The notes under the pieces: generated by a model
Database searches by the model: none
Told to the model about the DNA's origin: nothing
The model's input: the letters and a program-made list of their open reading frames with translations, nothing else
Position numbers and translations under genes: made by a program
Part shown: piece by piece, positions 17,101-29,093 of the stretch
How positions within the stretch are numbered: the first letter of the stretch is position 1
Layout: the number at the start of each line of letters is the position of its first letter
DNA from: Actinomortierella ambigua
Taxonomy: Eukaryota > Mortierellomycota > Mortierellomycetes > Mortierellales > Mortierellaceae
Length of the DNA: 64,000 nt
Assembly: GCA_016098155.1 (NCBI GenBank)
Contig: JAAAJB010000007.1
Span: forward strand, 87,321 to 151,320
Reading direction: 5' to 3'

Positions 17101-20100
17101 CTAAGAGTGAGCTCAACACAAGGACGATGGCTGTAGACTCCCTCGGAATGGTGGCAGCCAAGATCAAAACTACTATGCTTCGCTGTAAGAATTCCACTTT
17201 GGCGTCGCATCTTAAGCATCAGGCCTTACAGAATGAGGATGTAGAAGGCAGGGAGAAGATGGCAAACGAAGAATGGAGACTGTTCTATGGAGAACTCGGC
17301 AAGGGGACCAACATCAATGATCTCATCAGCCTGCAGGGGAGCTACAACCAAGTGATCGACTATCTCCAACCTCTCGAATGGAACGATCGTGCGATTAGAG
17401 CGGCCAAGTGTGCGTGGGTTTGGCAGTGGGCCAACCTTCTTTGCTCGGCGTGTAGCGCTTCGAAAGATATACAGGGTACAGACTGGCCTCAGGATAAATG
17501 GGGTATTATCTCCGATGAGACGATGAAGCTATGGCGGATACTGGCTGGCCATCCGCTGCCACAAGCGAGGAGAAGGTAGCATAACGGTTGCATTCATATT
17601 TGCCTCCATGTTCTGTCTCTACGCAATCTGACAAAACGAGAACTGACACACCCTCCCCCACCCGTTCTTGCGTTTTTGGTGACTATAGAGTGGCACGCAC
17701 ATTACCTCTAGAAGCTTCAGAGTATCTTACCTCACGGCAACCGCTCTTCCAGTCTTTTGACCTCCTCTTGTCCCGTATTCTAATGACACTTGAAGGAGGC
17801 GTTGTGGCGCTCCGGACAAAGTCCCTCAAGTCGCTTTCATTGATTGTGACGGGCGACTATGGAGTTCTTTCTCAACAAAACGTGCAGAAGACGATATCTC
17901 TTCGACTCCAAGACTCTAGCCCAGCTGTTCGTGATGCAGCCATCGATCTTGTCGGCAAGTACATGCTTGAGGACAAGGACATCCTGAAAGCGTACTATGA
18001 AATCGTCGGCGATCGCCTTTCTGTGAGTGACACGATGACTGTCCTTTTATGCTGAGCACTTTTCCTCTAATGACAACTAATTTTGCAGCAATGTACTTAC
18101 AATATCCTGCGTCTTCTATTTTGTTTGAAATTTCCTGTCGACATCAAACAGGATACAGGTCTTGGTGTACGTAAGCGAGTTATTCGTTTGTTCAAGGACA
18201 TTTTCGCAAAGACAGAGACAAGAGCTGTCAAAAATGACATTGCCAAGAGGATTTTATGGCGTGTGAAGGATGACGAACCGACCGTTCGAGATCTGGCAAT
18301 CAAGAGCGCGTTTGATATTTGGTTCGGCGAGTTTGTCCAAGCAACGCAACCAGTTCTCTCGAACGCCAAGCTTGATGAGGAGCCGTCGAACGTCGCTCAA
18401 GAGTCACCCTTGAGCACCGTTTCGACCTCCCAGAGGCGCGTTGTTCTGCGCCGGGGGAGAGTGCTCGTAGACGCCGTAGAGCAATTGCCGCCACCTCTCG
18501 TGGATGCTTTTGGTCATGTCCTAGTGACTCTTTTGGGCAAGGAAGGAGCCATTACGGCGACACCGCATTCTGCTTCTGCCGCGAATGCGCCCATGAGCTC
18601 TCAGGCGTTTTCAAGAGTCTGTTATATCCTTGTCGATTGTCTTGTAGACTTGATTGTTGTGCTTCAGGAAGAAGAGGAAGCCACCTCCAAGGCTGGCACG
18701 ATCGCCACGATGCATGCGCTCAGCATTTTCAGCAAGGCAGAGCCTCGGTTGATGACGGCAAGACACTTGGCCACACTACGGACATATCTCGTTGGTGCTT
18801 CGACAGCAGACGACTGGCGAATCACGATGCATGTGCTCAAGATCTATTTGGATGTAGTCCCGGCCGTTCAGGAGACGACCAGTCTAGCATTTGCCCAGTC
18901 GGTGGAGAAGCTTCTTTCGAGTCTGTTGTCGAGCTGTCCATTGGTGGTGGTGCCGGATGCAGCGCGTGCGTTGTGTCTTGTCATCCGATTAGTGACCCTG
19001 CAGAGTGCTCGACTGAGCAAGCTGATCCAGAGCTGTGTGGGCATGCTCCGGTCCGATCTTGAGCGGTTTCACCGTCAAGGCACACAGATGACCGAAAACA
19101 AGACTCGGCGCCTACTGCTCATCACGGGTCTCCTGTGCCAACATTTTCCCTTTGATAAGGAGATTGAGAAGCATCCTGAGGAGCAGCATTTGGCGACGCT
19201 CGCTTCCAATATGGCTCCCTCAGTGCACGAGACGGTGTTCAACACCCTTCTCTCCTACTTTTCCAAGGACTTGCCCGTCGCCATTCAACAGACGGCGTTG
19301 AGGTGCGTTGGATACGTTTTCCACTCGTTCCCGACGCTCATGAACACACAACAAGGCATCGAGCTGATGGACTCTGTCTTTGAAGAGCGCTCGCCCGCCC
19401 ATCTCCACGAGCTGCTACAACATTTTAACAACTACCTGATCAAGACGAACACGTTCGAGTCCGAGGCCGACGCCCACTCCTCAGCGACAGCAGCTAGTGG
19501 TCATAGCAGCAAGCGTGGTGGCGGCAAAAGGAGCCATTCGGACGCCGCGGCAGGATCTGGCAAGGCGACCAGGAGTCTGATCGCAAAGGCGGAAGACCAT
19601 CTGGAAGCCGGTATTGCGAGCGCGGTGATGCAACGGTATTTGGACCGTATCCTGCAATGTACGCTCATGCTGGATCCGACGGTGCAAGTGATTGCAGTGG
19701 ATGTGATGACCATCATCAACCAGCAGGCTCTGGTTCATCCGATGCTCTGCATGCCGTCGATCGTGGCCTTGGAGACAAGCCCCAACCGCGTCTTGAGCGA
19801 CCGCGTCCTCCGCATCCACAAGGACCTGCATCACAAGCATGCGTCCCTCATCTATGCCAAGAGCTTGGAGTGCATCCGAACCATGTATCTGTATCAGAAG
19901 CAGCTCCAGTCCTCGAGTGGCGAGCATGAAGTCCAAGGTAAAAAAAAACCTGCCATATTGCCTCTTCTCGGGGACGAACTGTGCGGACGAAAAAAAAATT
20001 GCTCATATGATCATTTGGCTCACCTTTTTTTCCCCCTATCCATTGACAATCTTTCAGGTTACAGAGCGGCGGAAGGGCGTATCCCCGAGTCGCTGCTCAA

Positions 20101-21220
20101 TCCAATGTATAGTCTAGTGTCGGAAAAACGTCAGGTTCGGCAGTCGTTGTTGTTGGGACTGGTCAAGCTGCTGGATGTCGAGCCATCGAATCCAACCTCG
20201 ACCGTCGATCCAATCTACATCCGCTTTCTCGGCGAGCTACTGGCGACTCTTGAGTATCGGACGGTGGAGGAGGTTCTTTACGTCATCTTCTATCTCAACC
20301 GGATCATTGCAGGGGCCGGATTTACATTGCTCGAGAGCTTGCGCGAACAACGGGATCCCTCTAGCACATGCAACTCTATAGGCATTCACTTGTCGTTGTC
20401 TAGCGGTACCATGGGGTCATCTTTGCCTATGGCATCGTCGTCGATGGACAAGGGCATGGCACCAGCTCCATCCAAGAGAAGTAAACGACGAAAAAAGAAG
20501 GGAATCTCCAACGACGCGATGGTAACGAGTAGTAGCCACCAGCGGTCTAGCCTGCTAGACCATGACGAGTCGGGCGAGGACGAGGTGGGCGACCGTGTGC
20601 TACTGGACTGGTACAGCAACATTCCCGAGGCGACCTTCCGGTCGATGGAGAGGACGGCCCGAGGGAGCATTGCGCTGGAGACAGTCGTCCTGGTCAAGAG
20701 CCATCTGAAGCACGTATATGACATTAGCGAAAGCCGCTGTCAGCAGTTCCAGCCGTCGGCCCATGCAGGACATAAAGAGCGACCCCATGCTATCCACGCC
20801 ACCCCGGGCAAGCTTCCTTGGAACAGGACACGTTTGGGGATCCAGATGTTGGTCATGAATGACCTGTCGACCATATCCAGCAACAGCACCACCACCACCA
20901 ACTCATCATCAGCAGGCGGAGATAAAAGTGATGACGGCGTGGCGACTCTTGCCCATACACGTGCTCGAAAGATGAGGGCGATCGACATCCAATTGGCGCG
21001 GTTCCGACGGCTCATGGAGGCAGAGTCTGTGGATAAGATGTTTGAATCTCTAGAGATTCGGTCGGAGCGCAACAGCAGTGGCCCAAGAAATGCATCGATA
21101 TCCATAGAACTGACAACCAGGATAGATCCAGAACCGGCCGGAGGACTAACGGCAAGTGGGGCAATGAGTGGTGATGATGACGGGCTCCACGGCCATGCCT
21201 CTGGTGAAGACGAGGCTTGA
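14137..21220 (+). CDS. SCC2: Cohesin loader SCC2/NIPBL/Mis4, with a one-base frameshift in an A-run
   Basis: Ten predicted exons: 14137-14287, 14398-14560, 14669-15503, 15557-16299, 16410-16510, 16599-16746, 16863-17575, 17689-18022, 18152-19937 and 20058-21220; about 2045 aa once one base is allowed for. The family is shown by HEAT-repeat blocks such as LRLQDSSPAVRDAAIDLVGKY, DTGLGVRKRVIRLFKDIF, AKRILWRVKDDEPTVRDLA and LWILEEILSSLIKLPYGKKI. SCC2 with SCC4 loads cohesin onto chromatin. In exon 3 the frame closes at a TAA just after a run of nine A (15454-15462). With one extra A, the reading continues into INHLAAFRK and joins DPVIEFEN through a GT-AG intron in exact phase. The last intron (19938-20057) is 120 bases with no in-frame stop, so its retention would add about 40 residues. 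The acceptor at 18152 was chosen over one at 18089 because it restores the conserved DRLS-DTG junction. Either an assembly error or a real lesion. Confidence 0.88.
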
Positions 21221-21408: not shown

Positions 21409-23860
21409 CTATGCATTGGTGGCCAACTGGCGAATCTCGGCATCCTCATAACCGAGCAAGTACAAGACGTACTTGAGGCTCTTTTGGTTGATGCGGGCGC
21501 GAGCCTTCTGCTGCACACGGGGCTTGGCGTTGAAGGCAATACCCAAACCAGCCTTGGCCAACATCCACAAGTCGTTGGCACCATCGCCCACAGCAATGAC
21601 CTGGTCCAGCGTGACAGACTCGGCCTGTGCAATGACCTCCAACAACTCGGCCTTGCGCTCACCAGAGACAATGGGTCCGACAGTCTCGCCTGTCAGGTAC
21701 AGTCCATCGGGCGACACCTTGAGATGGTTCGCAAAGGCATAGTCCAGACCAAGAATATTCTTGACGTGCAGCGCCAGAGGCATGAATCCTCCCGAGATGA
21801 CAGCGAGCTTGAATCCAATCTTCTTCAGTGCCTTGCACAGATAGACGGCGTCCTCTGTAAACGTGAGCGATTCCTTCACCGTCTCCAACACCGCCACCGG
21901 TGTACCCTTCAGCAGCGCCACACGGCGGCGCAGCGACTCCTTAAAGTCAATCTCACCGTTCATAGCCGCCTCCGTGATTTCCTGGTAGCAAGAGCAGAAA
22001 GAAAGAGAGAGAGAGAGAGAAAGGATTTGGTAAGCATTGGAAATCAGACATTGCGAGACAAACCATTGGATAACACAGCTCAAAACAAAAAAAAAAAAAA
22101 AAAAAAAGAGAGATATCATAGAGATGCTCAAGAAAAGATGGAGAGAGATGAAGGGCAAACACACATACCGACACCTTGTCCATCACACCGGCGTGACGAG
22201 CAATCTCATCAATCACCTCCTGCTGAATCAGAGTCGAATCCATATCAAAAACGACGAGACGCTTATGCTTTCGGAAGACATCGTATGGCTGCAGAGCAAC
22301 ATCGGTACCATGCTGAGCAGACAACTGGAACAGCGTCTCTCGGAAGCGATCCATGTCCAGGTTGGCCGGCACCGAGAGCTTGTAATCAGCACACGCCAAT
22401 CGACCCTCGTTCAAGCGCACCATCTTCTCGACCGAGATCTTGGCCCGAAGCAGCAGACCCGTCCACGAGGCCATGAATCCAGAAGTAAGACCTTGCTGAC
22501 AGAGCACCGTCGCCGTGTACTTGAGGCGGCCCTCGTAGGGCGCATCCTCGAGCGATCGGGGCACATAGCTGCCAAAGTGGGGGTCCTTCTTGAGCGAATC
22601 CAAAATGTCAAACGTCAGCGTCGCATCCCACTGCTTGGCAGCACTGGCCAGGTCCTGGAAGATGCCCAGATCGTCCTTCTTGACCGTGATCAGGATCGCA
22701 AACGTCACATTGTGATACAGGCGCGCAAAGGAAAAGTCCTCCAGCTCACAATCGTACTTGGCTGCACAGTGCAGCAGCGACCCAATGATGTCCGTGCCGT
22801 GGGGCCCGCTCATCGAAATGAGAACCTTTTGGTGTGGCAGTAACGCTGCGGGAGGGAACCACGTCTTTTCCACCGGTGGAAGAGTCGTTGGGCGCCACAT
22901 CATGACTGGCGAATCAGTGTTGAACTGGACACCACCTGGCGAATATGGGGTTTCTAAATTCACATTTTTTGTTCCCAAAAAAATAAGAAAAAAGGAGGGG
23001 ACAAAAGATTTTTGTGTGTGAGGTTCGAGGGGCGGGCATTGGACTGTTTATGTACGACCTCCTGGATCTCCATCGCATTTGGCTGATCCAAAAGACAACC
23101 AACAACAACACATGTCTGCTTTTCAACCATCCTTACCTGCAGAGCGACCACCAGGGCTCATGATCTCGGGAGGCTGAGCAGAAGTCTGGATCCTTGTGAC
23201 GGCACCGGTGAGCTGCTCCATGAGCTCCTTCTTGATGGTGCTTAGTTGCTCAGATCTGGCAAAGGGCATCCTCCGGACCCGATCCAGATATGCGTCGCTC
23301 AGTCCCAGTCCTGCATGGCGGTCCATCTTCTTGATAATCTTGACAATACCTGTAAAGTTGAGGAAGATGTACCTCTCCAGCTGGATGATCGACTGGAGCG
23401 AGGCCTCGATCGTCTGCTTTGACGTCGAAGCATACGACGCTCGGATCCTTTGTGTCTCGGCCGCCGTCAGTGCAGCCACCACCCCCACCTGCTCGTCCAA
23501 CATGGCCAGGAACTCGGGAACCTTGACTTGCAAAGTACCCATCCGGGCGGCAATGGTTTGTGGGAACGACTGCAGCTCTGAGAGTGCCTCGGCAAAGGAG
23601 CTCATGCCCAGGCTGTAGGGCGGCGAGGAAGGAAGGCCATTAGATGTCTGCACGGGGGAGCCTAGCTGGGGAATCGACGACGTCGTGCCGACACTGCCCT
23701 TGTTGACACCGTTGGTGGTGGTTGCTGAGGAGGGCCTCAAGCATGCAGGGGCGATCTCGTCTTTGATAAACTGCTTGAGTTGGGAATAGTCGATAACCTT
23801 GGGCTGCCACTCAACGGGCAGCTGCTGCTTCCGCTCGTTGAGGTAATTGCCGTACTTCAT
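21409..23860 (-). CDS. SPX domain fused to ACT-HAD phosphoserine phosphatase
   Basis: Three exons (minus): 23860-23137, 22953-22169 and 21981-21409, giving 693 aa. Residues 1-225 are an SPX domain: start MKYGNYLNER, Y25/K29/K33, and the basic helix KIIKKMDRH (K174, K177, K178), the inositol-pyrophosphate binding surface in this family. A GTAAGG donor and TTAG acceptor join SPX to the enzyme in exact phase; the enzyme frame has no ATG before its conserved N-region. Residues about 280-460 are ACT-like (KVLISMSGPHGTD). The HAD SerB domain is complete: DMDST (D478, D480), S566 in ISGG, K613 and GDGAND (D636, D640). It should hydrolyse O-phosphoserine to serine and phosphate, the last step of the phosphorylated serine pathway. 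Only 249 bases separate the start from the ABC transporter's stop. The phosphatase call is very strong and the SPX call strong; the fusion itself is predicted, not proven. Confidence 0.8.
22087..22107. repeat. 21-A homopolymer in SPX-phosphatase intron 2
   Basis: An A run on the plus strand is a T run on the coding strand, within the intron 21982-22168. A GA-rich stretch at about 22000-22020 is nearby. Both look like intronic low-complexity sequence. Confidence 0.85.
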
Positions 23861-24109: not shown

Positions 24110-27100
24110 TTACAGCTTTGCAGCCATTGTTCGTAGGAGTGCAGCATTGTGTGCCCCAGTTTCGTCCACCAAGGCCCCGAATAATGAATTGGGCCTTTCT
24201 AGCAGCTGTCTTGGGGTATCAAACTCGGCCACCTCGCCATGCTCCATGACAAGGATCACGTTGTAGTCGATGATGGTGTTCAACCGGTGGGCAATCGTCA
24301 CTACAGTCGACGTAGCAAAGTCCTCGCGAATCGCCTTCTGGATCAGTGCATCCGTCGCCAAATCCACGCTTGCCGTCGCTGTTGAGAGTGGGGAAGGGGG
24401 AGGAGGAGGAGGAGGAGGAGGAGGAGAGAGGGCCATTAGGTATAGAGAACAGGCACGAATAGATCAACGGAGAGCCCTTGACCTCTTGTCATCAACTTTG
24501 CATCCACAACACTCATCATGACCACTTACCCTCGTCGAGCACCACAACTTTAGACTTTGCCAACAGCGCTCGTGACAGACAGACCAATTGTCTCTGACCA
24601 ACACTCAGATTCTCTCCATGAGCGGCGACTACGGCATCAAGCCCTCCATCCTGCTCAGCAACATAATTCTTGAGGTCCGATGTTTCCAATGCTCGCCATA
24701 GCTCGTCATCGGTGTATCGGCCCAGCGGATCGAGATTGTATCGGAAGGTGCCCTGGAAGAGAACCGGGTCCTGAGGAATAATAGCAATCCTGGATCGCAG
24801 GTCGGCCGTGCCCAAAGCCCCAGTCTCAATGCCGTCGATGAATATCTGGCCCTCATCCAGCTCAACCAGGCGAAAGAATGCCTGGATAAGAGACGACTTG
24901 CCGGCGCCGGTACGACCCACCACGCCAATCTTCTGGCCGCCCTGGACAACAAAGGACACGTTGCGGAGAACCCGAGGCAATCCGGCTCGGTAGCACATCG
25001 AGACGTTGGAAAACTCTATTGTTCCTTGCGATGGCCATGACGCTGCTGGTTCTGTGTCGGGTCGTACAGCTGGTGGTTCGCTGGGCAGGTTCTCGATGTA
25101 GTAGTTAAGGCGCTCTGCAGAGTTCATGTTGTTTTCCTAATGTTGGTATAGTAGACAGGACGAGCAAGTGGATGAGCGAGTATGTGTGAAAAATACGTCC
25201 GTCAGTGCTACATCAACAAGGTCATCATCCACCCAAAAAAAAATAGAAGAAGTAAACATAAATAGTTATCATCGTAATATCATCCATTACCAGCATAGTG
25301 ATCTTTTGAAGGACCCAGTTCATGTCGCCAGAGAGACGTGAAAGGTAGCTCATGACCAAACCAGCGGTGGCAGCGTCAATCGTAAAGCGTGTACCGATGA
25401 TCATCATCGCTGTTCCAAACTGAATCAAGGTACCCAGGAGATTGACGCGCAACGACAACCATCGGGCCGCTGTGATAAAAATGTAGTAAGGTCGGTTGCT
25501 GCGGTCCAAAACAGCTCGCTGGTCCTTTATCGCCGTCTCTGTCACTTTAAATGCCCGGAGCAATGTCATGCCATGAAGACATTCCGCAAAGTGTGTAAAC
25601 AGGTAGGACCGGCAGGTGGAATCCAACCGCTTGACCTCTCGACTGGTAGTCAGGTAGTAGACGCTGATCAAATAGTAGGTTGCACCGATCGGAAGGATGG
25701 CCACAGTGAGCCACGGAAAGAAAATTATGGTAAGGACAACCGTGCCCAGGGCGTTGAGCGCGGTTACAAAGATGTCGTTGATCGTCTCCCAAAAGATATT
25801 GTCCAGATCTGAGACATCCTTGCTAAATCGGTTAAGAATACGTCCAGCGGGCGTGGTGTCGAAGAACGAAAGAGGCGCTCGAAGCACATTCTCCATCGCC
25901 CGGTCGTGGATTGTGCGTGTCGTCACGATGATGATCTTGGAGAGAAGTGCGGTTGCAGTAAGACCCATGCCCAGTTGATCGAACGCAAAGACCACATAGA
26001 TGATAATCTAAATAGTGATGCAGATATGCATTGGTTAAAGTGAGGCATAAGAGGATCGTCCTATACGAGGAAATTGTATTCCGCTGATTCTTCATGCCGG
26101 CGGGGACACCATCACTTACATATTGAAACATGGGTAACCCAAGAGAGTCATTTGTCCACAAGCTGAGCCAATAGTTCATGCTACAAGAAAAACAAGTCAG
26201 AACAACGTTAGCTAGAGTCAAAAGCAGGCATTATCACAGTCTCTTGTCCATTGAATTGACGGATAGGCCAGTGCACGGTAACGTACACGACACTCTGCAC
26301 TTGTTGGATGACGTAGAAAAAGGCCGCGATGCCCCAGAGCCGCCATCCTGCAGTCTTGAAGTACGCGATATAGACACTGGAATCGATGGCACCTTTTGCG
26401 CGCTCTTCGTCCACAATCTGTTTCGCCGGTGTTTGGCCAGATGTGGAGTCAATAGAGTCTTCCTTGACATCCCTCTCCTTCTCAAGTGGCGCTGTCTGAT
26501 CGTCTCCTTGGTCTTTCTCACTGATTGGTGCAGCTCGCTCGGAAGTATTGACTGGTATCTCTGTGAGCTCACCCTTGATAGATGCACGGTCCCCCTGACT
26601 CGAAGCGCCGTCGTTCGACGATTGAGTAGAAGATACATTCTCTTCTCCACCATACTGCTCCATGAGGAGACGGAAGCTACTCTTGTCGTCGTTCATGAGC
26701 TGATTGTATGTGCCTTGTTGATCGATTTTGCCATCTTTCATGCACACAATATAGTCGACATCTGGCAGAACATGAAGCTGATGAGTAGCAATGACTCTTG
26801 TGCGTCCACGCAGCTCGCCCAGTACACATCTGTGCCAAAGATGCTTGCCGACGTGCGCATCTACTGCGGATAACGGATCATCCATCACCACCATGTCAGC
26901 ATCAAAGTAGACGCTCCTGGCCAGCGACAGACGAGCCTTCTGGCCTCCCGACAGATTGACGCCTCGTTCTCCAATCTCTGTCTGATCGCCATCTGGGAAC
27001 ATGGCTAAATCCTTCTCCATGCAACATGCCGTCACGATCCTCTGATATTTGACAGGATCCAAGGGTTGTCGGAAGAGGATATTGTCTTGGATCGTGGCAT

Positions 27101-29093
27101 TCTGAATCCATGGTGTTTGAGGTGCATAGCTGACAGTCGAGCCTCGCGTGAGGTGTCCTGCAGACATTGTCATGGAGCCCACCATCGCCTGCAGCAGCGA
27201 AGACTTGCCCGCCCCGACAGGTCCGACGACTGCAACAAGAGAGCCACGAGGGATGTGAAGGTGAATGTCCCGCAAGAATGTGATGTAGGCATCCTCCTGT
27301 TTCGTGGACGAAAGACTGTCCTCATTCTTTTCCTTCTTGCTCCTCTTGCCTGTCTTCTTCTTCTCCTTCTTGCTCTCGTCCTTTCCTGCTGGTGTGGGTG
27401 ATGGTGGTCGAGAAGGAAGGGCGGGTTCTTGCTCCCAGATAAAGTCTGCATGGTCGAACGACAGCGCAAACTCGTGCGCCGGGTCCACAGTCACCGACAA
27501 AGAGATCTCGTCCGCCAACAGGAATTTCTCAATCCGACGGATGGCAACGAGCGCGTCAAAGACTGCAGCGTAGCAGTTGGGAAGGATCTGCATCGGGACT
27601 CGAAGAATAGTGAAGTAGGAAAGGACTGGGAACACAATCTCCGCTTTCAGCTCGTGATTCGTGGCGGCATAGAGAACAAATGTCAACGCTGACGCAAATA
27701 CCGGGATTGCCTAGCGTCGACAAAAAAAAATGGGCAAAGAATGGTGTGAGAGTGACGAGTTGTTGGAGATGACAAATACATATGTGAATTTGTGTTACAT
27801 CGGATCTCAAGGCGTTTTAAAGACGAATTAGAGGAAAAGAAAGAAAGGGGTGGGTAAGAAGGTCTTACAGCGCTTGTCGCAGAGGCGAACCCTTTGTCAC
27901 GGAGAATTCGCTTGATCCCTTGCAATTCCTGGGCACGATATTCTGCCAATTTGGCCAGAAAGGATGGCTCCCAGGCAAAAAACTTGATGACTTTGATGCC
28001 CTGGACAATCTCTGTTGTCAGTTTCATCCGCGCATCGGTGACCTGAGAGGCCTCCTTCCGTATAGGAGCCAGGAGACCCATAAAGTATGCTTGGATTGGA
28101 TTGGCAAAGAGCAAGATGACCGCACCGATCAAGGCGCTGGGGCCAATCAGATCGATTAAGAGACCGATGACGGCGATAATAAAAATCGGACAGGCGACGG
28201 CGATGAGCGCTTGGAGACCGGCAGTGTCGATTCTGCTCACATCGGTCGACATGAGGTTGATGATTTTGCCGTCTGGGAACGCTAGATGCGATCGGGCCGA
28301 GAGAACGGTTGCCTTGCGGAAAACGGCATCTGTCAAAATAGTTCGAGCTTGAATGCCCACACGGAACGACCGAATATTGAATTGTTGGTAGGTGATAGCC
28401 ATCCATGCAGCCAGCAGCAACATGCCCACGGCGAGACCGTATCCTTGGGCAATCGGGGGTGGTTGACTCGGATTGGACTGAGCCTCTTTGACGTGCTGCA
28501 GGATCTGGAAGTGGGATGATAGGGCAGCAGATTAAGGTTTAGCAGCGCCCTTGAGTAACGATTCAGGGGCAATGATCGGTCGCGAAGGGAGGTGAGAATT
28601 TCTTACCGCACGGAGAATGATGGGATTCAGAATCTGGCAGACATCTGATAGTGGGGTGAGAGATGACGACCGTTACTGTTAGATGGCTTGTGCCTGGAGG
28701 AGAGAGAATGACACTGCCGTTGGGGTGGGGGGGGGAGTTACCTCCAAGTTCCAGGACCAGGAAGGCCACGAAATATGGCTTCCATAAAACAGCGGCAATA
28801 GCTCTGCCGAGAGAGGGCTTCCCTCCTTTGGTTTCAGCCCTCTGGTGTTGGTGATCCCAGGCAGCCTGGAAGGCATTGCCGAGGGTAGTAGCCTTGCGCT
28901 CATCTAGAACCTCATACAGATCTGCCTCCTCGATTGCCTGGCGATTTCCTCGGCGAAAGAGTCCATCGAGCCAAAAGAAGCTCCATCGGCTAAAGACATT
29001 TGCTGTTGCTTCTGGGGAGATAGGGGCGCCACTTGAAGACTCTGTTTCTGGCAGTTTTTCCTGCTGAGGTTCCTTCTCTGATGACATCTCCAT
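24110..29093 (-). CDS. ABCC-type (MRP/YOR1-like) ABC transporter
   Basis: Eight exons (minus): 29093-28742, 28644-28607, 28504-27869, 27710-26287, 26180-26120, 26007-25291, 25136-24530 and 24378-24110; 1367 aa with all phases consistent. The ATG at 29093 is the first in frame. The order is TMD1-NBD1-TMD2-NBD2 with no TMD0, as in short ABCC proteins. NBD1: Walker A GPVGAGKS (505-512), signature LSGGQ (595-599), Walker B ending VVMDD (619-620), the degenerate ABCC form. NBD2: Walker A GRTGAGKS (1150-1157), signature LSVGQ (1253-1257), VVVLDE with catalytic E1278. Such pumps export organic anions, conjugates or drugs from plasma membrane or vacuole; the substrate cannot be read from sequence. 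NBD1 carries a Lys-rich insertion (about 437-481) before Walker A, and the NBD1-TMD2 linker is Ser/Glu-rich. The last intron splits NBD2 right after LDE. Confidence 0.93.

Follow-up and report, generated by a model that had tools for sequence, protein, structure and literature searches.

An SPX domain fused to a predicted phosphoserine phosphatase in Actinomortierella ambigua and other early-diverging fungi

Introduction

SPX domains are described on phosphate transporters, on the polyphosphate polymerase, on plant ubiquitin ligases, and on Pho81 and Gde1, in which the partner of the SPX domain is an ankyrin-GDPD unit. Here we analyse a gene of the soil fungus Actinomortierella ambigua, placed in Mortierellomycota by taxonomy look-up, in which an SPX domain is joined through a disordered linker to a pair of ACT domains and a predicted HAD phosphoserine phosphatase of the SerB kind. 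The gene lies in a stretch of 64,000 nucleotides (contig JAAAJB010000007.1, positions 87,321 to 151,320, forward strand), the whole of which is called the window and in which all coordinates below are counted.

Among the described systems, VTC shows how an SPX domain can control an enzyme through inositol pyrophosphates (PP-InsPs). When Y19 together with Y22, N120/N123, or K126/K129 are mutated, the enzyme is partly or fully active in the absence of ligand and gains little more from 5-IP7, and the ligand breaks an inhibitory SPX-SPX contact (PMC10167327). A similar relief of inhibition is the working model for SpXpr1, the Xpr1 of fission yeast (PMC13083964). In three fungi phosphate starvation causes a strong drop in PP-InsPs (PMC10511240), and a PP-InsP-loaded SPX domain should therefore report ample phosphate.

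A sequence-only reading of this locus, made without database searches, had proposed the fusion and stated that no SPX-SerB protein was known. As to the literature, searches of open-licence PubMed Central papers brought up nothing that describes SPX joined to phosphoserine phosphatase. The main text of a paper on nutrient signalling in arbuscular mycorrhizal fungi gives Pho91 and Pho81 as SPX proteins and does not contain the word 'phosphoserine' (PMC8401276), the four subfamilies set out in a review of plant SPX proteins include none with an amino-acid enzyme (PMC13153306), and in the text of PMC7614388 both terms occur in unrelated places. As to the protein itself the statement does not stand, for public records hold the fusion from this and other fungi under the labels 'hypothetical protein', 'HAD-like domain-containing protein' or 'phosphoserine phosphatase'.

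Results

Splicing of the minus-strand frame gives a product of 693 amino acids that is 100% identical over its full length to P0001 (DFQ27_008372, hypothetical protein, Actinomortierella ambigua), whose UniRef entry carries the name phosphoserine phosphatase. The features of the gene are as follows.

23137..23860, minus strand: exon 1, SPX domain (residues 1-218) and the start of the linker
23774..23788, minus strand: codons Y25-K29, on the N-terminal hairpin of the pocket for inositol phosphate; Y25 and K29 lie opposite Vtc3 Y22 and K26
23327..23341, minus strand: codons K174-K178, SPX basic helix, from alignment and conservation; K174 lies opposite Vtc3 K126, the partner of Vtc4 K129
22954..23136, minus strand: intron 1, separating the SPX exon from the ACT-HAD part; 183 bases, phase 1, GTAAGG...TTTAG; removal gives P0001
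22169..22953, minus strand: exon 2, conserved linker, tandem ACT (about residues 284-464) and HAD start with catalytic D478 and D480
22898..22903, minus strand: M259-M260, in-frame ATG-ATG, possible start of a phosphatase-only product, from translation and linker conservation
21982..22168, minus strand: intron 2, inside the HAD part; 187 bases, GTATGT...CCAG; removal gives P0001
21409..21981, minus strand: exon 3, the remaining HAD phosphoserine phosphatase (SGG, K613, GDGANDLWML) and stop

At the intron 1 donor CGCTCTGCAG is followed by GTAAGG, the intron beginning at 23136, and at the acceptor GAATTTAG is followed by AAACCC, the intron ending at 22954. These are the sites that had been proposed, and the 183-base gap and the phase-1, in-frame SPX-ACT-HAD join are likewise as described. 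A second in-frame acceptor lies 18 bases downstream (after CGCCAG, 22936). Its use would lose ETPYSP and it is unlikely to be the main site, the S-P there being kept in 33/34 and 34/34 rows.

On the 693-residue protein Pfam models score above their cut-offs for SPX (PF03105, 46.0 bits, cut-off 27.8), ACT_6 (35.3 bits, cut-off 23, in a single stretch at 285-356), HAD (71.1 bits, cut-off 27) and Hydrolase (82.7 bits, cut-off 26.4), and exon 3 alone reaches 199.9 bits with the SerB model TIGR00338 (cut-off 144.15). The HAD domain, previously judged to be catalytically complete from its letters, bears D478, D480, S566, K613, D636 and D640 in the motifs DxDST, S/G, K and GDGxND, and each of these residues is unchanged in at least 119 of the 120 aligned relatives. 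By these sequence criteria the SPX-ACT-ACT-HAD protein is a predicted phosphoserine phosphatase, which would catalyse the final step of the phosphorylated serine pathway. A structure model resolves two ACT-like repeats at residues 284-358 and 384-464, predicts the helical-hairpin plus long-helix fold of SPX, and aligns with the M. avium SerB2 structure across residues 281-693. In the linker (after 215, before 283) an SP or TP motif occurs in 93 of 105 rows; these might, speculatively, be proline-directed kinase sites of a Pho85-like kind.

The relatives are the best 120 of 3523 protein-search matches, and were counted as SPX-bearing where the alignment covered over 70% of the columns of the SPX core. 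On this measure 105 cover the SPX core, 6 cover it in part and 9 lack SPX. Precomputed PF03105 assignments are present on 106 of the 120 and absent from four of the 105 SPX-covering rows (P0092, P0101, P0110, P0112). The domain-architecture search that had been suggested as a check thus finds SPX with ACT and HAD as one protein across early-diverging fungi, in the genera Linnemannia, Mortierella, Podila, Lobosporangium, Rhizophagus, Geosiphon, Ambispora, Endogone, Jimgerdemannia, Rhizopus, Mucor, Umbelopsis, Phycomyces, Basidiobolus, Syncephalis, Thamnocephalis, Coemansia, Spizellomyces, Rhizophlyctis, Powellomyces, Piromyces, Paraphysoderma and Allomyces. We take these to represent Mortierellomycota, Mucoromycota with Glomeromycotina, Basidiobolus, Zoopagomycota, chytrids, Piromyces and Blastocladiomycota. 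P0099, which has a transcriptome-style identifier (prefix Partr), is presumably from the aphelid Paraphelidium and is treated as a probable aphelid. No Dikarya are among the names shown in these best 120 of 3523 matches.

Several observations bear on whether the two parts are one gene. Upstream of M259, residues S246, P247, F252, D255, S256, P257 and V258 are all conserved, each in at least 33 of the 34 Mortierellomycota rows, and the stretch is therefore read as coding and as part of the fused frame. When the SPX exon was searched by itself, nine short proteins matched, and the eight that were read (all except P0126) each end or diverge after ...RS at the end of exon 1. Ending or diverging as they do at the junction intron, these SPX-only proteins resemble the first exons of genes that are themselves fused, and from the same end points the intron seems to be shared within Mortierellomycota. 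Orthologues in which the two parts are unlinked genes, named beforehand as what would speak against a fusion, did not turn up. Ten of the 105 SPX-bearing rows (P0059, P0078, P0081, P0085, P0086, P0088, P0090, P0091, P0093, P0106) are proteins of 614-650 amino acids whose longest contigs, of 1,878-2,303 bases, hold 0-428 bases beyond coding need by hand arithmetic. For P0086, P0093 and P0088 the spare is 0, 0 and 47 bases, too few for an intron, so that the fusion is an uninterrupted frame there if the labelled contig sizes hold. In sum, it is nearly certain that one gene encodes the fused SPX-ACT-ACT-HAD protein. The sequence-only reading had also found no ATG ahead of the conserved phosphatase start. 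This was inexact, as M259-M260 lies in frame about 25 residues before the ACT domain (start about 284), and because this ATG-ATG precedes the domain a short phosphatase-only product from M259 is possible in principle.

Conservation of the ligand pocket was scored over 34 non-redundant sequences and 181 SPX columns, in which the mean share of the commonest residue is 0.50. K174, K177, K178 and K210 are lysine in 34/34 of these rows, and Y25, K29 and K33 are kept in 33/34. K174, K177 and K178 are among the seven most conserved of the 181 columns, with Y25 and K29 among the top 15. The basic helix K174/K177/K178 is as the sequence-only reading gave it, with lysine at the three positions in 104, 104 and 105, respectively, of the 105 relatives that cover the SPX core, and N168 is asparagine in 103 of them. 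A HMMER alignment to Vtc3 pairs Y25 with Y22, K29 with K26, N168 with N120, K174 with K126, K177 with K129 and K178 with K130. The pocket is therefore nearly invariant and the sensor looks intact at the level of sequence, and PP-InsP probably binds the SPX domain.

Nine of the best 120 relatives lack SPX: six Gigasporales from five species (P0103, P0108, P0109, P0111, P0114, P0115; 417-430 amino acids), P0035, P0096 and P0119. The other Glomeromycotina rows are fused, and Gigasporales names are absent among the nine matches of the SPX-exon search. P0035 comes from Podila clonocystis, and the SPX half of the same species is P0122, labelled 'partial' and on a different contig. P0119 is from Rhizopus microsporus, and other Rhizopus rows are fused.

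To follow the history of the two halves, trees were made from 67 rows chosen from the proteins found, with 66 rows for the SerB half and 65 for the SPX half (P0130 was omitted from both and P0115 from the SPX tree) and groups assigned from the listed names. Both trees hold the same phylum-level groups with 10 label changes each, the minimum being 9 and the means for shuffled labels being 40.2 (SerB half) and 39.5 (SPX half). The Zoopago/Kickxella rows are split in both, and the SPX tree is flagged for long branches that meet. The pattern fits, and does not prove, one fusion event no later than the root of the sampled fungi, with vertical descent thereafter. Three further fused proteins, P0079, P0097 and P0100, adjoin the aphelid row outside the named fungi when the SerB tree is rooted on the aphelid, and may be cases of the fusion from beyond the fungal crown. 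The SPX part of P0099, used as a query, found six matches: P0099 itself, P0079, three short SPX proteins (two with ACT_6) and a VTC-type protein.

A prokaryote scan with two HAD-motif patterns confirmed at least 587 relatives, of which the best 80 were kept. In all 80 loci the match begins no earlier than residue 260 of the query, has 35-52% identity and contains no SPX; the phosphatase half is therefore of bacterial type and the SPX half looks added. Among 13 compared rows, all outside Mortierellomycota, identity to the A. ambigua copy is 31-53% in the SPX half versus 73-85% in HAD. A bacterial-type SerB would on this account have gained a eukaryotic PP-InsP sensor at or before the origin of fungi, and many early-diverging lineages, the mycorrhizal Glomeromycotina included, may run it under direct PP-InsP control, a reading that we regard as evenly poised.

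Further genes of the assembly provide the setting. The assembly has 846 contigs and a completeness that is unstated, and an intron-split gene could escape its searches. A second SerB was sought with PF12710, the HAD protein, TIGR00338 and TIGR01490. The SPX-SerB gene is the only match above the SerB cut-off of TIGR00338, which gave 27 matches, two of them from this gene and the other 25 at or below 38 bits against 144.15. The HAD protein found in the genome its own two exons and one further match with an E value of 0.48, and PF12710 found five places besides SPX-SerB, four above cut-off (two only with neighbours in frame). SPX matches occur on eight other contigs, near frames for a CitMHS/Na-sulfate symporter (two), EXS (one), Ank with a GDE1-like C2 (two) and VTC (one). 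At L038 (C113) and L042 (C136) SPX is the sole domain in the frames tested. IPK-family kinases match at two loci, where two of three matched frames contain stop codons that may be introns, and PPIP5K matches at one; by sequence these genes could make the PP-InsP ligand. A PSAT-like match in two adjoining segments (324.3 and 90.4 bits, both below the 443.6 cut-off) and eight PGDH-like matches, all below cut-off, suggest that the phosphorylated serine pathway is present.

The gene is flanked in the window by a convergent plus-strand frame (18074-21220) with a Nipped-B/Scc2 cohesin-loader C-terminal domain (PF12830, 160.6 bits), which ends 189 bases from the SPX-SerB stop. Upstream on the same, minus strand (24112-27710) are frames with two ABC_tran domains, apparently one multi-exon ABC transporter, in which a (CTC)n run near 24410 is probably intronic. 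An Rfam scan of the window gave no match at the gathering threshold.

Discussion

The combination of a conserved pocket with a complete phosphatase invites a model in which serine synthesis is gated by phosphate status. High PP-InsP, at plentiful phosphate, would bind the SPX domain, and the bound domain would shift its own first helix, or the way it touches the ACT-HAD core over the flexible linker, with a resulting change in phosphatase activity. A ligand-dependent change in activity, of either sign, is somewhat likely. As to the sign, VTC and the Xpr1 model suggest that SPX would hold the ACT-HAD core in check as long as PP-InsP is not bound, in which case relief of inhibition would let phosphate sufficiency license serine and one-carbon synthesis. 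We lean only tentatively toward this activating direction.

Several observations weigh against gating by a conserved sensor. The structure model has a predicted template-modelling score (pTM) of 0.58, with the linker disordered at 221-278 and no SPX-catalytic contact predicted, and the Foldseek top 50 contains no SPX chains, SPX rows appearing only in a second look. R181, which we take to belong to the lysine cluster, is R in 25 and K in 9 of the 34 sequences and ranks 49th of 181 columns. In Gigasporales the SPX domain is either lost or on an unannotated exon, so that the sensor is dispensable or missed there. Mutants of the inositol hexakisphosphate (InsP6) site of fission yeast Xpr1 have export that is hardly impaired or even raised (PMC13083964), and therefore a conserved pocket need not mean strong gating.

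The main rival to activation is regulation of the opposite sign, in which the PP-InsP-bound SPX domain inhibits and a drop in phosphate and PP-InsP frees the enzyme, making serine synthesis an internal source of phosphate. Phosphate limitation is predicted to raise serine synthesis, which releases phosphate (PMC7864628), and Pho81 is inactivated by 1,5-IP8 via its SPX domain (PMC10511240); however, PP-InsP is the activator in VTC (PMC10167327) and in the Xpr1 working model (PMC13083964), and we consider inhibition unlikely. Less probable still is that SPX acts as a docking or localisation module, which would recruit the phosphatase to SPX proteins such as VTC or Pho81, or make it dimerise, with little effect on catalysis. 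The homotypic SPX-SPX contacts of VTC (PMC10167327), the long disordered linker, which suits a tether, and its possible kinase sites agree with docking, but the near-invariance of the pocket makes ligand binding seem to matter.

The fused gene has a rival in two adjacent genes, or in a fused product accompanied by a short one, with a promoter inside the 183-base intron driving a phosphatase-only protein from M259. Intron 1 does contain a pyrimidine-rich tract, M259 and M260 are present in 33/34 and 34/34 Mortierellomycota rows, a linker methionine is present in 82 of 105 rows, and the Gigasporales records are phosphatase-only and of similar size. Such an arrangement is nonetheless very improbable in the light of the conserved peptide ahead of M259, the fused P0086, P0088 and P0093 on contigs with 0-47 spare bases, and the SPX-only search, in which eight of nine matches were read and resemble first exons. 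Two wholly separate genes are unlikely for the same reasons, with no stand-alone SPX family among the nine matches. That the fusion is a fossil, with SPX retained through descent and sensing lost, would suit the faster divergence of the SPX halves and a possible loss in Gigasporales, but is likewise very improbable given the rank of K174, K177, K178, Y25 and K29 among the 181 columns.

If PP-InsP gating of this phosphatase is true, the SPX network would reach beyond phosphate handling to the direct allosteric control of amino-acid and one-carbon synthesis. The fusion offers a direct test of the idea that serine synthesis, as a phosphate source (PMC7864628), is steered by phosphate status. It also bears on arbuscular mycorrhizal fungi, where the symbiosis involves phosphate signalling.

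Compared with known systems, the A. ambigua protein combines elements that are otherwise found apart. Bacterial and mycobacterial SerB2 has the tandem ACT and HAD domains, to which the prokaryote matches are confined, and the high root-mean-square deviation of the structure alignment means that the domains are arranged differently in the A. ambigua model. The human PSPH-type enzyme, with chains of about 220 residues, is a short HAD protein that has neither SPX nor tandem ACT, and yeast Ser2 is of a similarly short kind. On the SPX side, SPX-EXS (Syg1/XPR1/PHO1) and SPX-SLC13 (Pho87/90/91) proteins share the sensor fold but are transporters, and the SPX-GDPD proteins Gde1 and Pho81 serve glycerophosphodiester use or the PHO pathway, whereas the catalytic part here is predicted to serve serine synthesis. 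VTC is alike in its aligned pocket residues and in being an enzyme that SPX gates via PP-InsP; unlike SPX-SerB, it is a membrane polymerase complex that stores phosphate and has neither ACT nor HAD. SPX-bearing enzymes are thus already known, and SPX on a phosphoserine phosphatase is a new combination.
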